Shown here: positions 26,033-33,444 of the stretch, piece after piece
How positions within the stretch are numbered: the stretch's first letter is position 1
Layout of the letters: each line of letters starts with the position of its first letter
Assembly: GCF_900142065.1 (NCBI RefSeq)
Contig: NZ_FSRJ01000003.1
Location: 1-64,000, forward strand
Length of the DNA stretch: 64,000 bases
Direction: 5' to 3'
Origin: Agromyces cerinus subsp. cerinus
Lineage (GTDB): Bacteria; Actinomycetota; Actinomycetes; Actinomycetales; Microbacteriaceae
Program-made: the position numbers and the translations under genes
Notes under the pieces: generated by a model
The model's database searches: none
What the model was told of the DNA's origin: nothing
The model's input: the letters and a program-made list of their open reading frames with translations, nothing else

Positions 26033-26479
26033 ATGCGCGGTGCTTCCGGGGTGGTGCTGGCGTCGAGGGCGGTCGCGGCCGTCGGACTCGTGAGCGTCGG
26101 GGTACTGCACGGCATCTGGGCGGGCGGCTCGAGCTGGCCCGCGAAGAGCCGAGCCGAGCTGGCGGACGCGACGGTTGGATCGACCTCCGTCGAACCGGCA
26201 CCCATCGCGACCGCGGTGGTGGCGGTGATGGCGACGGCGGCCGGCATCGTCGCCGGCGGAGCGCTGGGCGACCGTCCGATCGCGGTGCTCGCCCGGCGCG
26301 CCACCGGGTCGGCGTTGCTGACCCGAGGCGCGGCCGGTGGCGTCGTCGCATGCAGGGTGCTCGGCCTGCCGGACCCGAGCGAGCGGTTCCGCAGGTTCGA
26401 CGCACGCTTCTACCGGCCGCTCTGCCTCGTGCTCGGGGTCGCGGCGCTGGTCGGAGCTCGTCGGAGCCCGTCGGACTGA
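26033..26479 (+). CDS. DUF3995-type small membrane protein
   Basis: The 148-residue protein has about four hydrophobic stretches (about 5-30, 57-80, 95-110 and 125-142) and the SVGVLHGIWAGGSSWPAKSRAELADAT segment typical of DUF3995 proteins. These are uncharacterised inner-membrane proteins. A TAGTGT box 7 nt before the ATG argues for this start over a GTG three codons upstream. It is followed 19 nt later by a lipoprotein gene. Confidence 0.75.
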   Translation: MRGASGVVLASRAVAAVGLVSVGVLHGIWAGGSSWPAKSRAELADATVGSTSVEPAPIATAVVAVMATAAGIVAGGALGDRPIAVLARRATGSALLTRGAAGGVVACRVLGLPDPSERFRRFDARFYRPLCLVLGVAALVGARRSPSD

Positions 26480-26498
26480 CGGTCGATATGCTCGCGAC

Positions 26499-27056
26499 AT
26501 GACCCGACGTCCTGCACTCGGAAGCGCCCTGATCGCTGCCGTCTCACTCGCCCTGCTCAGCGGATGCACGGCGACCGACGACCCCGCGCCGTCGCCGACA
26601 TCGCCCCCGACGGCCTCGTCGGCCCCGAGCGCGTCGCCGGAACCATCGCCGACCCCGAGTGCCGTCCCGGCCGCGACGTGCGACACCGTGCTCGCTGCAG
26701 AGGGCTCCCAGAAGCTCTCGGACGACGGCCTCGAGCCGCTCCCCACGCCGAAGGTGTTCGATGCACTCGCGGTTCGGATGGTGGAGGCGGACGGCATCGC
26801 CTGCGCGTGGGGCAAGCCGAGCACCGACATCACGCTGACGGTCGTGCAGGTCGGCGTCGCGCCAGGCGATGCAGGCGCCTGGTCGGACGCCCTCGCGGAG
26901 ACGGGATACGTCCTCAGCGACGACCCGGTGCCCGGCGCGTACACCGGGCCGGTGGAACCGGGCAGCGGCATCAGCCCAGTCGCCGTGCGCGCCGATGGAT
27001 CGCTCACCTTCGTCAGCGCTCCCACGTTCGCGTCGATGCTGGCGCCCGCGGCGTAG
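26499..27056 (+). CDS. Lipoprotein with DDGL and C-W-KP motifs (paralogue of 31306)
   Basis: This 185-residue lipoprotein has a signal with LLSGC (Cys23), a Pro/Ser/Thr-rich linker (about 25-58), and a folded domain with CDTV, DDGL, IACAWGKPSTD and FVSAPTFASML. The same order of motifs occurs in the lipoprotein at 31306-31869, so the two are paralogues of an unrecognised family. A TATGCT box ends 6 nt before the ATG, which suggests a leaderless mRNA. Function unknown; it is probably anchored on the outer face of the membrane. Confidence 0.82.
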   Translation: MTRRPALGSALIAAVSLALLSGCTATDDPAPSPTSPPTASSAPSASPEPSPTPSAVPAATCDTVLAAEGSQKLSDDGLEPLPTPKVFDALAVRMVEADGIACAWGKPSTDITLTVVQVGVAPGDAGAWSDALAETGYVLSDDPVPGAYTGPVEPGSGISPVAVRADGSLTFVSAPTFASMLAPAA

Positions 27057-29453: not shown

Positions 29454-30059
29454 TCAGCGACGCGGCGCCGACTCCCGGTCGACCGCGGTCTCGACGAGCG
29501 CGCGCATCGCCGTCGGGATGCTGGACTCCTCGAGGGCGTCGATCATGAGCGGTGCGAACTGCGCCTTGCGCCCTGCGTGGGTGCCGAGGAACCGCCGGAG
29601 CTGCGCATCGGTCGCCCGCACGCGCTGCGCCGGCTGGTGCTGGAACCCGCGGAACCGGGCGAGCTCGCCGTGCTCGCCGAGCAGCTGCTGCATGCGCTCG
29701 ACGCCGAGCGCACGGATCAGCTCGCCCTCGAGGTCGGGGTCGCACGCGAAGAACCCGAACCCGGCGAGCTCGTCGAGCGTGGTCGCCGAACCGAGGCCGG
29801 CGTCGTCGACGGCGCGCCGCACGTACGCGATCTCGGCCGCGTCGAAGAGCCCGAGCACGCGCTGGCGCGGGCGCAGCTCGGCGAGCGCTCCGAGGTGACG
29901 GTGCAGGTTGGTCACGCCGCCCATCGAGACCACGCGCACCCCGGCCGCGGCGAGATCGTGCCCCAGTCGCGCAGCGAGCGCCTCGACCGCGAGGCGGTCA
30001 CTGTCGCCCTCGACGAGCAGCACGGTACCGGATGCCTCGTGCTCCGCGTCGCCGTCCAT
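29454..30059 (-). CDS. Stand-alone TOPRIM domain protein (OLD-like)
   Basis: The 201-residue protein contains a single TOPRIM domain: VLLVEGDSDRLAVEALA (catalytic Glu plus Asp), VVSMGGVTNLHRHL, and RVLGLFDAAEIAYVRRA. The pattern is that of the OLD-family nuclease TOPRIM domain, yet the ABC ATPase half is missing. It may be a nuclease or ligand-binding protein; the role is unproven. TAGGGT lies 7 nt before its ATG, so it is another leaderless candidate. The gene converges with the membrane protein at 28746 and diverges from the RIO kinase leader. Confidence 0.8.
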   Translation of the reverse strand: MDGDAEHEASGTVLLVEGDSDRLAVEALAARLGHDLAAAGVRVVSMGGVTNLHRHLGALAELRPRQRVLGLFDAAEIAYVRRAVDDAGLGSATTLDELAGFGFFACDPDLEGELIRALGVERMQQLLGEHGELARFRGFQHQPAQRVRATDAQLRRFLGTHAGRKAQFAPLMIDALEESSIPTAMRALVETAVDRESAPRR

Positions 30060-30197
30060 GGCGCCGACCCTACCCCGCAGCAGCCCGCGCAGTGAAGCAC
30101 GGGTCTGGACGTGGCGCGCGAACGCACCTAGACTGCCGGAGCTGCGTCATTCGCGTGGCATCCGCTCCGGTGCATCCGGTGAAGAAAGGAGTCGATC

Positions 30198-30257
30198 ATG
30201 GCTGTCGTTGTCGTGAACCTCCACGTTCCCTTCACTTGCGAGGCCTCCACCCGCTAA
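30198..30257 (+). CDS. Putative leader peptide (19 aa) of the RIO kinase gene
   Basis: AAAGGAG stands 6 nt before this ATG, a better ribosome site than most genes here. The frame encodes MAVVVVNLHVPFTCEASTR with four successive valine codons (30204-30215), then TAA. It ends 37 nt before the TTG start of the RIO kinase, in a stretch that folds into two alternative hairpins. This looks like a translated regulatory leader peptide rather than a functional small protein. I know of no named family. Confidence 0.5.
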   Translation: MAVVVVNLHVPFTCEASTR

Positions 30258-30287
30258 GCGGCCCGGTGGCCTCCGCGACCTTCGGAG
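30238..30287 (+). promoter_or_regulatory. Candidate translational attenuator of the RIO kinase
   Basis: Hairpin A pairs the 3' part of the leader frame (30238-30254) with 30258-30276 (arms include AGGCC/GGCCT and CACC/GGTG). Hairpin B pairs CTCCG (30271-30275) with CGGAG (30283-30287) and hides the GGAG ribosome site of the kinase. A and B share 30271-30276, so they exclude each other. Ribosome movement on the leader frame would select between them. This is deduced by eye; energies were not computed. Confidence 0.45.
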
Positions 30288-30294
30288 ATCCACC

Positions 30295-31200
30295 TTGCAC
30301 ATCACCTCGTCTCTCGACGAATCCGCCGTCGTGCGTGCGCACGCGGCATCCCATGCCTTCACGACCCCGCGATTCGACGCGGGCGATCTCGCCTTCCAGA
30401 CCGTGGAACCGGGCGAGGGCCAACGCTGGTCGACCTGGCCGGCCACCACTCCGCTCGAGCGCGGGCCGCAGCCGCGACCCGATTGGCTCGTCACTGATGC
30501 CGCGGCGATCGACACCGAACTCGGTGTCGTGAAGACCGGCAAGGAGGCCGACCTCTTCCTCATCGAACGCGCCGTACCCGACGCCGAGCCCGGCACGCTC
30601 GGCAGGCACGTGCTGCTCGCCGCCAAGCGGTACCGCGGCAGCGAGCACAGCGACTTCCACCGCTCGACCGTCTACACCGAGGGGCGCACCACCCGCCGCA
30701 GTCGCGACGCCCGCGCCCTCGCGAAGGGCACGACATTCGGCCGCGAGGTCGCGCGCGTGCAGTGGGCGGCCGCCGAGTTCGAGGCGCTGACGCGACTCAC
30801 CGAGCTCGGGGCGGCCGTGCCGTACCCGGTGCAGGTGAGCGGCACCGAGGTGCTCATGGAGTTCATCGGCGACGGCCGTGTCGCCGCTCCGCGTCTCGCC
30901 CAGGTTCGCGCCACCCCCGACGAGTTGCGCGAGCTGTTCCACCAGGTCATCGAGTTCATGCGCACGCTCGCCCGCTCGGGACTCGCGCACGGCGACCTCT
31001 CGCCGTACAACCTGCTCGTGCACGACGGCCGCATGGTCGCGATCGACCTGCCGCAGGTGGTCGACGTGGTGTCGAATCCGCAGGGCTTCGACCTGCTGCA
31101 TCGCGACTGCCGCAACGTCTGCGACTGGTTCACCCGGCAGCGGCTCGAGTGCGACGCCGAGCAGCTGTTCGGCGAGCTGATCGCCGAGGTCTACAGCTGA
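30295..31200 (+). CDS. RIO-type serine/threonine protein kinase
   Basis: The 301-residue protein has RIO kinase motifs in order: P-loop VVKTGKEADLF (78-88), the ATP-binding Lys111 in AAKRY, catalytic HGDLSPYN (232-239; Asp234) and metal-binding AIDLPQ (249-254; Asp251). Bacterial RIO kinases are poorly studied; archaeal and eukaryotic relatives act in ribosome maturation. The start is a TTG with GGAG about 7 nt upstream. A 19-codon leader frame and two mutually exclusive hairpins precede it, so its translation may be regulated. The target is unknown. Confidence 0.88.
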   Translation: MHITSSLDESAVVRAHAASHAFTTPRFDAGDLAFQTVEPGEGQRWSTWPATTPLERGPQPRPDWLVTDAAAIDTELGVVKTGKEADLFLIERAVPDAEPGTLGRHVLLAAKRYRGSEHSDFHRSTVYTEGRTTRRSRDARALAKGTTFGREVARVQWAAAEFEALTRLTELGAAVPYPVQVSGTEVLMEFIGDGRVAAPRLAQVRATPDELRELFHQVIEFMRTLARSGLAHGDLSPYNLLVHDGRMVAIDLPQVVDVVSNPQGFDLLHRDCRNVCDWFTRQRLECDAEQLFGELIAEVYS

Positions 31201-31269
31201 GCCGTGTGCGTTCGGGGGCCGGCCTCTCAGGGCTACCCCTGAACGCGGGTCACGATTCGAGCACATCCG

Positions 31270-31298
31270 TTGCGAATAGGAAGATATGTTCCTATTCT
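31270..31298 (+). promoter_or_regulatory. Promoter and perfect palindromic operator of the 31306 lipoprotein gene
   Basis: TTGCGA (31270-31275), a 17-nt spacer and TATTCT (31293-31298) form a strong promoter; the ATG follows 7 nt later, which implies a leaderless mRNA. The spacer and -10 overlap a perfect inverted repeat GAATAGGAA-GATATG-TTCCTATTC (31274-31297). A repressor bound there would occlude the promoter. The cognate regulator is not identified. Confidence 0.7.
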
Positions 31299-31305
31299 CT
31301 GTGGC

Positions 31306-31869
31306 ATGGCATCTCGAACCGAATTCCTCGCGGCGATCGCCGCCGGTGCACTCGCCCTCGTCCTCACCGGATGCGGCGCGAGCGCACCCGATTCCTCCGC
31401 CTCCGGCGCGACCGCAGAGACCGTGGCGAGCGTCGAACCGTCGGCGCCCGCGGCCGAGACGCCGGCCGATCCTCCGGCCGCCGGGCCGAGCTGCGACACC
31501 GTGTTCACCGACGCCGAGTACACGCGCATCGCCGACGACGGTCTCAGCCTCAAGGAGGAGGACCCGTACCTGCTCGGCCCCGTCATGGAGCGCATGGCCG
31601 ACGAGGGTGCACTCATCTGCGTCTGGACGAAGCCGAACAGCGACGTCTCGGTCTGGTACGCGCGACTCGAGGTGGGCGACCAGGGCCAGGCATGGCTCGA
31701 CGAACTGCAGGCCGAAGGCTGGCTCGAGGACACCCACCAGGGCGACGGCAGCTACCAGGCCCCGGCGGACTACGACGCGAACTACCAGCCCTCCGTGATG
31801 CTCGAGTCCGGCGTGCTGCATTTCGCCAGCTACAACCCGCTCCTCCGAGAGGTGCTGGAACTGCAGTAG
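31306..31869 (+). CDS. Lipoprotein with DDGL and C-W-KP motifs (paralogue of 26499)
   Basis: The 187-residue lipoprotein has a lipobox LTGC (Cys23), an Ala/Pro-rich linker and a domain with CDTV, DDGL, LICVWTKPNSD and LEVGDQGQAWLDELQAEGWL. These correspond to CDTV, DDGL, CAWGKPSTD and WSDALAETGYV in the 26499 lipoprotein. The ATG is placed at 31306 because the promoter's -10 box ends 7 nt upstream. It stands just after the RIO kinase gene but has its own promoter and a perfect operator palindrome. Function unknown. Confidence 0.83.
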   Translation: MASRTEFLAAIAAGALALVLTGCGASAPDSSASGATAETVASVEPSAPAAETPADPPAAGPSCDTVFTDAEYTRIADDGLSLKEEDPYLLGPVMERMADEGALICVWTKPNSDVSVWYARLEVGDQGQAWLDELQAEGWLEDTHQGDGSYQAPADYDANYQPSVMLESGVLHFASYNPLLREVLELQ

Positions 31870-31891: not shown

Positions 31892-32016
31892 GCTTCCGGG
31901 TTTCGCCCGCGGCAACGCGCGCCCGACGCGGTACAGTGCACGAGATCGACGCGGATCGGCCATGGCCGGGAGGCGGCGTCACTCACCGTTCACCCGAGAC
32001 CGGAAGACTCCCAGAC

Positions 32017-33444
32017 ATGACCGTTCCCCCCGGCCCGCCGACCGAGGATTCAAGCTCAGGCACACCCGTCCCACCGGCCGCAGCCAACAGCGGCGCGATC
32101 GGAGTGATGGGACTCGATCTGCAGGAGGGGCGGGTCATCCCACGCCGCCAGGTCGTCTCGTGGGCACTGTGGGACTGGGCCACGCAGCCGTTCAACTCGG
32201 TCATCCTCACCTTCGTGTTCACGGCGCTCTACCTCACGAGCGACACCTTCCTCGACCCCGCGGTCGCCGCGCTGGGCGAAGACGACCCCGCGTACGAGCA
32301 CGCGATCGCCCAACTGGCGAGCGGGCTCGGCTGGGCGATCACCATCGCCGGCATCCTCATCGCCCTCCTCGCTCCCGTCCTCGGTCAGCGAGCGGATGTC
32401 GCGGGACGGCGCAAGGTCTGGCTGGGGGGCGCGACCGCGGCGCTGGTGCTCTGCATGCTCGCACTCTTCTTCGTGCAGGGCTCGCCCGCCTACTTCGTGC
32501 TCGGCGTCTCGCTCATCGCAGCCGGCACGGTCTTCAGTGAGATCGCCGGTGTGAACTACAACGCGATGCTCGTGCAGGTCTCAACCCGGCGCACGGTCGG
32601 AAAGGTGTCTGGTCTCGGGTGGGGGCTCGGCTACATCGGCGGCATCGTCGCACTCGTGCTCGTCGTGGTCGCGACCGCGTTCGACTGGTGGGGCATGCCG
32701 ACGGACGACGGGCTGGCCTTCCGCGTGATCGCGGTCGGATGCGCGATCTGGACGCTGATCTTCGCCTGGCCGGTGCTCGTGTACGTGCCGGAGGCACCGC
32801 CGGCTCCCGGCCGCGAACGGGTCTCGTTCTGGCGGAGCTACGTCGTGCTCTACCAGGACATCGTCGCCCTGTGGCGCAACACCCGGCCGACGTTCTGGTT
32901 CCTGCTCGCGAGCGCCGTCTTCCGCGACGGGCTCGCCGGGGTGTTCGCATTCGGTGCGGTGATCGCGGCCGTCGCCTTCCACTTCAGTTCGAACGACGTC
33001 ATGATCTTCGGCATCGCCGCGAACCTTCTCGCGGGCGTCTCGACCATCGTCGCCGGGCGGTTCGATGATCGCTTCGGCCCGCGCGCGGTGATTCTCACGG
33101 CGCTCGGCGGCCTGGTCGCTGCCGGCCTCCTCGTCTTCTTCCTCCACGACTCCGGCAAGCTCGTCTTCTGGGTGTTCGGGCTCGTGCTCACCCTCTTCGT
33201 CGGCCCCGCACAGGCGGCCTCGCGGTCGTTCCTGGCCCGCGTCACCCCCGCCGGTCGGGAGAGCGAGATCTTCGGCCTCTACGCGACCACCGGGCGCGCC
33301 GCGAGCTTCCTCTCGCCGATGCTGTGGTCGGCGTTCATCCTGGTGTTCGGCGCTACGTACTGGGGCATCCTCGGCATCGTGATCGTCGTCGCCGCGGGGC
33401 TCGTGCTCATGCTGTTCGTGCGGGAACCCGAACGTACGCCCTAG
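32017..33444 (+). CDS. MFS transporter, UMF1/Atg22-like family
   Basis: The 475-residue protein has a Pro/Ser-rich N-terminal tail of about 45 residues and about twelve helices. It carries the UMF1 signature WALWDWATQPFNSVILTFVF and GKVSGLGWGLGYIGG (helix 4-5 region), which mark this branch of the MFS. Substrates of bacterial UMF1 proteins are mostly unknown; amino-acid or small-solute export is possible. A TACAGT box occurs around 31932. It converges with the TetR gene. Confidence 0.87.
   Translation: MTVPPGPPTEDSSSGTPVPPAAANSGAIGVMGLDLQEGRVIPRRQVVSWALWDWATQPFNSVILTFVFTALYLTSDTFLDPAVAALGEDDPAYEHAIAQLASGLGWAITIAGILIALLAPVLGQRADVAGRRKVWLGGATAALVLCMLALFFVQGSPAYFVLGVSLIAAGTVFSEIAGVNYNAMLVQVSTRRTVGKVSGLGWGLGYIGGIVALVLVVVATAFDWWGMPTDDGLAFRVIAVGCAIWTLIFAWPVLVYVPEAPPAPGRERVSFWRSYVVLYQDIVALWRNTRPTFWFLLASAVFRDGLAGVFAFGAVIAAVAFHFSSNDVMIFGIAANLLAGVSTIVAGRFDDRFGPRAVILTALGGLVAAGLLVFFLHDSGKLVFWVFGLVLTLFVGPAQAASRSFLARVTPAGRESEIFGLYATTGRAASFLSPMLWSAFILVFGATYWGILGIVIVVAAGLVLMLFVREPERTP

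Follow-up and report, generated by a model that had tools for sequence, protein, structure and literature searches.

The window, by which we mean the whole 64,000-nt stretch of the Agromyces cerinus subsp. cerinus contig that was analysed, contains a RIO-type kinase gene preceded by a short leader ORF and two alternative hairpins (Table 1). The kinase matches the Pfam RIO1 model with an E value of 5.7e-37 and 127.6 bits against a curated cut-off of 22, which bears out the original prediction of a TTG-started RIO kinase; the NCBIfam PA4780-type model gives 155.1 bits, below its cut-off of 350, and RIO1/RIO3 proteins of solved structure are relatives of the protein. Residues H232 G233 D234 L235 S236, Y238 N239, I250 D251, P253 Q254, and G82 K83 E84 are invariant in 20 kinase sequences. 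They correspond to HGDLSxYN and IDxPQ, which we take to be the catalytic motifs of RIO1-family kinases, and to GKE, presumably a loop. With these conserved and the RIO domain above its cut-off, the gene falls into the RIO1 family, and on sequence grounds its product is a bacterial protein related to the RIO kinases that mature ribosomes. In a tree of 102 kinases, which leaves out 48 of the 150 loci described below for having too little kinase sequence or missing the anchor pattern (including the family f26 and Glycomyces types), the window kinase groups with that of Agromyces subbeticus.

Divergent from the leader, on the minus strand, lies a gene for an OLD-like TOPRIM-domain protein (Pfam PF20469; 29454-30059). 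An MFS transporter gene (UMF1-like by eye; 31936-33444) is found near the kinase, likewise in the related loci L005, L006, L009, L011, and L014, and its function is possibly linked with that of the kinase. The region is flanked by two lipoprotein-like genes (26337-27056 and 31270-31869) with C-terminal halves that are alike by eye, and these look like paralogues.

Table 1. Features of the leader-kinase locus, in coordinates of the window
Feature	Position	Strand	Content or predicted role	Basis
Possible leader-kinase promoter	30105-30134	+	CTGGAC - 18 nt - TAGACT	By eye, weak
Leader ribosome site	30185-30191	+	AAAGGAG; GGAG at 30188-30191	Read from sequence
Leader ORF	30198-30257	+	ATG at 30198 to TAA; 19 codons + TAA; MAVVVVNLHVPFTCEASTR	
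Hairpin A	30236-30278	+	Strands 1 and 2; would stop strand 2 from reaching the kinase ribosome site	
Strand 1	30240-30248	+	GAGGCCTCC; anti-sequestor formed by the final leader codons; partner of strand 2	
Strand 2	30265-30274	+	GGTGGCCTCC; common to hairpins A and B	
Hairpin B	30265-30294	+	Strand 2 paired with strand 3 and CCACC; would sequester the kinase ribosome site	
Strand 3	30284-30287	+	Kinase ribosome site GGAG	
RIO1-family kinase	30295-31200	+	TTG start at 30295; 301 aa	ORF and Pfam RIO1

The 19-codon frame with an AAAGGAG site and four consecutive valines that had been noted at the outset is present as described, the valines being codons 3-6, and a gap of 37 nt separates it from the kinase start. 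A CTCC within the leader (30219-30222) can pair with the GGAG of the leader ribosome site. The promoter in Table 1 is regarded as weak because a consensus promoter scan found no promoter-like site for the leader-kinase transcript. A consensus scan for intrinsic terminators (a G+C-rich hairpin followed by a T run) found none in 29900-31400, and terminator-based attenuation was rejected on this result.

Both hairpins that had been proposed downstream were found. Hairpin A, placed at 30238-30276, has a predicted folding energy of -21.0 kcal/mol (-23.7 kcal/mol for 30236-30280), with GAGGCCTCC paired with GGTGGCCTC (30265-30273). Hairpin B, placed at 30271-30287 (-4.7 kcal/mol), had been drawn too short: pairing of GGTGG.CCTCC with GGAG..CCACC extends it to about 30265-30294 and -14.7 kcal/mol. 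The GGAG of the kinase lies inside B, as had been claimed, and the two hairpins are mutually exclusive, as had also been claimed, because both use GGTGGCCTCC. These are the folding energies of the two states that the original prediction had suggested computing. The stability of the 131-nt region is ordinary for its composition (z -0.68), and the naked folds are near balance, the winner varying with the chosen ends (B in the minimum free energy folds, A at 0.89 in a slightly longer stretch); the case therefore rests on the relatives. No Rfam family was matched in 30060-30420 at E<=5 or in 18 related loci, the sole Rfam match in the whole window being a tRNA, and a known RNA family was rejected on these results.

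Relatives of the kinase were collected from 150 Microbacteriaceae genomes (30 with a relative, weak matches included), from 398 Microbacteriaceae genomes in a second search (65), from 296 genomes of the class (53, nine of them Microbacteriaceae), and from a genome collection that contributed its 80 best among at least 584 named loci, so that the sample leans to close relatives. The named loci span Agromyces, Microbacterium, Leifsonia, Frigoribacterium, Nocardioides, Kribbella, Streptosporangium, Glycomyces, and others. The 203 pooled upstream regions gave 150 non-redundant ones, 91 from Microbacteriaceae and 59 from other Actinomycetia. Ahead of the kinase, 90 of the 91 and 55 of the 59, respectively, have a short leader ORF equipped with a ribosome site. 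Under a uniform rule, a leader ORF with a 4-base ribosome-site match is found in 141 of 150 loci compared with 21% of shuffles, one with a match of at least 5 bases in 124 (5% of shuffles), and one with a 6-base match in 73 (1% of shuffles); since shuffles also yield such ORFs (21%, or 5% under the stricter rule), a few of the 145 leaders may be there by chance. The five loci without a leader are L024, for which the kinase match covers the second half of the kinase only, and L201, L205, L206, and L208. In L205, a WhiB7-type promoter lies directly before the leaderless kinase, as if for a leaderless transcript, which makes this locus a natural case of leader loss. Conservation of the leader and of the pairing in relatives, the lack of which the original prediction had named as one ground for refutation, was found both in these ORF counts and in the covariation set out below, and this comparative evidence confirmed that the arrangement of leader and hairpins is more than chance.

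The reading frame of the leader is tied to the hairpins. Strand 1 was sought in the last 33 nt of the leader ORF plus 3 nt beyond, a search that fitted 73 of the 87 distinct Microbacteriaceae leaders and missed 14, of which some fit another register by eye and at least one (L041) seems decayed. In L041, from Microbacterium resistens, the leader and strand 2 look decayed and the kinase is kept; here regulation may have been lost. Strand 1 is in phase with the leader ATG in all 73 scored leaders, at a distance that takes five values between 36 and 48 nt, and the leader stop ends 15, 18, or 21 nt past the start of strand 1. A ribosome terminating at such a stop would have strand 1 within its footprint. 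The sister Microbacterium strains L040 and L053 have a leader cut to 14 codons, and the strand 1 that they keep overlaps the new stop (TGAGGCC). The distance from leader stop to kinase start ranges from 29 to 76 nt among the 87 distinct leaders.

The encoded peptide is free to vary. In comparisons that use non-independent sequence pairs, the synonymous share of leader changes is 0.25 observed versus 0.26 expected for Microbacteriaceae, 0.44 versus 0.36 for Kribbella/Streptosporangiales, 0.17 versus 0.30 for the MAA.. leaders of family f26, and 0.06 versus 0.29 for the Nocardioides type, the last from two pairs only. Purifying selection on the Microbacteriaceae leader peptide was rejected, as there is no synonymous excess. 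As judged from these sequences, it seems to be the travel of the ribosome along the leader that matters and not the peptide made.

Covariation in hairpin A was computed for the 66 of the 73 fitted leaders whose gap does not exceed 52 nt. Of 592 cells, 94.9% are paired, and 15 carry double changes against 4.0 expected (0 of 500 shuffles, which, like the swap tests below, ignore relatedness among loci). No shifted register reaches the covariation score of hairpin A; at an offset of -2 the number of double-change cells is 14 versus 15, but only 33% of the cells are paired. One pair switches from C-G to G-C in two sequences, and in all eight sequences with GACCTC in strand 2 the A stands opposite a T in strand 1. 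The outer arm of hairpin B favors its own partner (-6.76 versus -5.47 kcal/mol, 44 loci, 0 of 10000 permutations, with the wrong GGAG assigned in one row, L064), and in L018 and L020 strands 1, 2, and 3 are altered together. The covariation in relatives that the original prediction had proposed to look for is therefore present in all three strands.

Pairing of the leader tail with the intergenic sequence is stronger for cognate than for swapped partners (-23.06 versus -21.80 kcal/mol, 1 of 5000 permutations), and the leader head, used as a control, has no cognate-specific pairing with the gap (4983 of 5000). The leader ribosome site pairs in a cognate-specific manner with the leader body in 56 diverse loci (0 of 5000) and shows no specificity for the gap (694 of 5000). 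In a folding-based test of the tail, 35 of 56 diverse Microbacteriaceae loci gave p<=0.05. Many of these loci went into a covariance model of the switch, which was run on 150 Microbacteriaceae genomes and gave 42 matches. By their coordinates, 20 of these lie before the kinase; the other 22 have E values no stronger than 4.8e-6, and the five of them that were inspected by eye show no leader of this kind. Strong matches thus occur before the RIO kinase only, and those at kinases are no independent test because the same loci built the model.

The effect of ribosome position was modelled by folding in 70 loci. With the whole leader free, hairpin A is formed at 0.52 and B at 0.43; with the leader free from codon 13 on, corresponding to a ribosome stalled near codon 8, the values are 0.64 and 0.32; and once a ribosome occupies the leader stop, B reaches 0.94. 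The kinase site is unpaired at 0.15-0.16 with the tail free versus 0.007 with a ribosome at the stop. For the window alone, A is at 0.89 in the naked full stretch and B at 0.995 with a ribosome at the stop. Even when hairpin A is forced, the modelled kinase site is just 0.21 unpaired on average; the "on" state is therefore relative, and the switch may be gradual. Because the last codons of the leader are the anti-sequestor, the kinase site should close when a ribosome gets as far as the leader end. The folds with a ribosome at the stop and with a free tail accordingly predict that a finished leader would close the site and that an early stall, or the absence of a ribosome, would open it.

The locus has a conserved leader ORF with a ribosome site and exclusive pairings, one of which hides the kinase ribosome site, and we consider it likely that it is a translational attenuator that reports whether ribosomes finish the short leader ORF. 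In the mechanism that we favor, strand 1 would pair with strand 2 and thereby keep it off the kinase ribosome site. Ribosomes that translate the leader to its stop would cover strand 1, so that strand 2 would pair with strand 3 and the kinase would go untranslated. Stalling before the leader's midpoint, or no initiation, as under translation inhibitors or starvation, would leave strand 1 free; hairpin A would then form during transcription, and the kinase site would become more open. The signal would be general translation failure rather than one amino acid. The proposal that ribosome position switches the kinase holds insofar as the structures are exclusive and the leader chooses between them in prediction. 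Computation supports the ORF, its frame, the three covarying strands, and the two-state fold; we infer the polarity, the inducing conditions, and the service of the kinase in translation stress.

Outside the Microbacteriaceae, the arrangement recurs with other sequences. The leaders of family f26 (MAAHSRRRAV...) have no peptide or strand-1 sequence in common with the window; their leader end TTCCCACCGCC pairs with GCGGTGGGGACCTCC, and GCGGTGGGGACCTCC pairs with GGAGACCACCG. Further three-strand versions of different sequence are found in Glycomyces and Nocardioidaceae loci. The tail-pairing test gave p<=0.05 in 20 of 33 non-overlapping loci outside Microbacteriaceae, a count that keeps loci with a wrong ORF (e.g., L075, L086, L150, L152, L160, L161, and L202), that falls to 17 passes once the wrongly assigned L150, L152, and L202 are removed, and that includes 10 near-copies of family f26. 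An early SRRR or WRR is seen in the family f26 leaders L159, L162, L164, L189, L191-L196, and L200, and resembles the macrolide stalling motif R/K-X-R/K mentioned in PMC12121999.

Nocardioides, Kribbella, and Streptosporangiales have a different layout, with a leader that extends across the ribosome site and start of the kinase. The kinase start is in the +1 frame of the leader in 37 of 37 scored loci (two were skipped), and a single long hairpin hides both ribosome sites. Among 20 diverse Nocardioides-type loci, the pairing tests gave 0 of 5000 permutations for the upstream arm with the kinase site and 3 of 5000 for the leader site with the leader body; no pairing reached significance for the Kribbella type, for which only four loci were diverse enough. 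A ribosome modelled at codon 10 changes the unpaired fraction of the kinase site from 0.19 to 0.25 in the 20 Nocardioides-type loci and from 0.06 to 0.25 in the four Kribbella-type loci. The overlapping class should behave like erm or toiL, though this modelled opening is small.

The original prediction had likened the locus to erm and had proposed valine starvation among its tests. A valine attenuator, in which pausing at valine codons with uncharged tRNA switches the kinase, would explain the four valines of the window leader and the presence of valine within codons 2-13 of 80 of the 87 distinct leaders. Yet four valines in a row occur in five of the 87 and three or more in eight, threonine is almost as frequent as valine (76 of 87), no residue is universal, the leader has no synonymous excess, and the kinase is no enzyme of amino-acid biosynthesis. 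Valine sensing was thus not borne out; no conserved run of regulatory codons was found, and we rejected this attenuator as highly improbable on the codon and substitution data. The comparison with erm fared better, in that the leader does appear to control a hidden site, but it is apt in part only, as the leader end is the anti-sequestor and a finished leader should close the site, and an early stall could open it. Positive control of the erm/toiL kind, with a stalled leader ribosome breaking the structure that hides the kinase site and leader loss meaning "off", suits the overlapping leaders of Nocardioides, Kribbella, and Streptosporangiales. It is an unlikely explanation, since in the window class the competing strand lies in the last leader codons, where a ribosome favors the closed state (B 0.94), and an early stall alone would open the site; nor does the model open the kinase site by much in overlapping leaders with a ribosome at codon 10.

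An unconserved peptide together with conserved hairpins could be expected of a protein-independent RNA switch or thermosensor to which the ORF is incidental. We think this very improbable, because strand 1 stays in frame in 73 of 73 leaders at distances that differ by multiples of three, the stop stays within 15-21 nt of strand 1, and leader ribosome sites are far above chance. Highly improbable, too, is simple translational coupling or re-initiation, whereby terminating leader ribosomes hand the 30S subunit to the kinase start: a stop-to-start distance of 29-76 nt would permit it, but that distance varies widely and the covarying anti-sequestor pairing would be needless.

A WhiB7-like protein, the hallmarks of which we take to be an RGRPRK hook and EPWGVWGGE, was detected in all six non-Microbacteriaceae genomes examined and in none of eight Microbacteriaceae genomes, where all 19 WhiB-family matches were viewed. 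The Microbacteriaceae locus L251 comes from a genome with a divergent Wbl protein that has an AT-hook-like RGRGRPR tail and is without the WhiB7 core motif. In WblC/WhiB7 promoters, a GAAAWY box stands three bases ahead of the -35 element (PMC7157823), and we scanned for AAWYNNNTTGV, a shortened rendering of GAAAWY plus the -35. This box is found upstream of the kinase in 45 of 59 non-Microbacteriaceae loci (0 of 59 on the reverse strand) and in 0 of 91 loci of the Microbacteriaceae, the window's own family. In the 43 of the 45 box loci that have a scored leader, the -35 lies 74-112 nt before the leader start (median 81).

As far as the motif and 14 genomes indicate, with both the promoter and the protein present outside the Microbacteriaceae, the kinase there has the appearance of a WhiB7-controlled gene behind a ribosome-sensing leader, and within the family the leader may be the sole stress sensor of the kinase. 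The WhiB7-type promoters point to a putative role of the kinase in translation stress, and recurrence of the leader across actinobacteria suggests a place for the kinase in how cells respond when protein synthesis is blocked. Somewhat short of an even chance, and thus tentatively, actinobacterial RIO kinases might be dedicated translation-stress effectors, driven by WhiB7 and fitted with a ribosome-sensing leader in many lineages, and with the leader switch as sole stress sensor in Microbacteriaceae without WhiB7. If this were true, the bacterial RIO counterpart would act on, or guard, drug-stalled or damaged ribosomes.

In trp-type attenuation, the position of the leader ribosome picks between exclusive RNA pairings, and completion of the leader is the repressed state. 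The window leader is alike in that the ribosome's position on a short leader would pick exclusive pairings and completion would repress; it differs in having a hidden ribosome site and not a terminator, in the absence of a codon run, and in its kinase target. Actinobacterial examples of leader-peptide attenuation appear in PMC1262725. The cysteine and leucine leader peptides described there are likewise short leader ORFs, and in LEU elements it is the codon run of the leader that base-pairs with the downstream gene's ribosome site (PMC1262725); these leaders carry runs of regulatory codons, whereas the RIO-kinase leaders do not.

In erm and toiL/topAI, too, a uORF controls access to the next gene's ribosome site, and broad sensing of translation stress is the likely use (PMC12121999); E. 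coli toiL is proposed there to act by stalled-ribosome release of a hidden site. A stalled ribosome releases the hidden site in erm, whereas in the window class the 3' end of the uORF is the anti-sequestor and a finished leader should repress. Of the two layouts, the overlapping one seen in Nocardioides and Kribbella comes nearer to toiL. The whiB7/wblC uORF resembles the RIO-kinase leaders as an actinobacterial uORF that senses several translation inhibitors (PMC7157823 and PMC12121999), and the promoter motif suggests membership of the same regulon outside Microbacteriaceae. It differs in that PMC7157823 describes the control of wblC as transcription attenuation, whereas the step predicted here is translation initiation, and in that no WhiB7 was found in the eight Microbacteriaceae genomes checked.

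Our literature search, which covered mainly open-access papers, found no description of leader control of bacterial RIO kinases. A survey of prokaryotic kinases (PMC1262709) reportedly mentions RIO1. The leader ORF, the anti-sequestor, and the hidden ribosome site each belong to kinds already known, and the combination, the target, and the recurrence with different sequences are new as far as we have found. The putative switch, together with the WhiB7-type promoters, gives a handle on when the kinase would be needed, namely on translation failure. The idea of the ribosome as sensor appears to have been kept for one gene while RNA sequence, peptide, and even layout changed, and such a kept regulatory idea helps to find switches that sequence similarity misses. 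The kinase of Aeromicrobium sp. 9AM (L060), a genus that we take to belong to Nocardioidaceae, is 67% identical to that of the window and is preceded by a window-type switch without a WhiB7 motif, which suggests that kinase and leader were transferred together.
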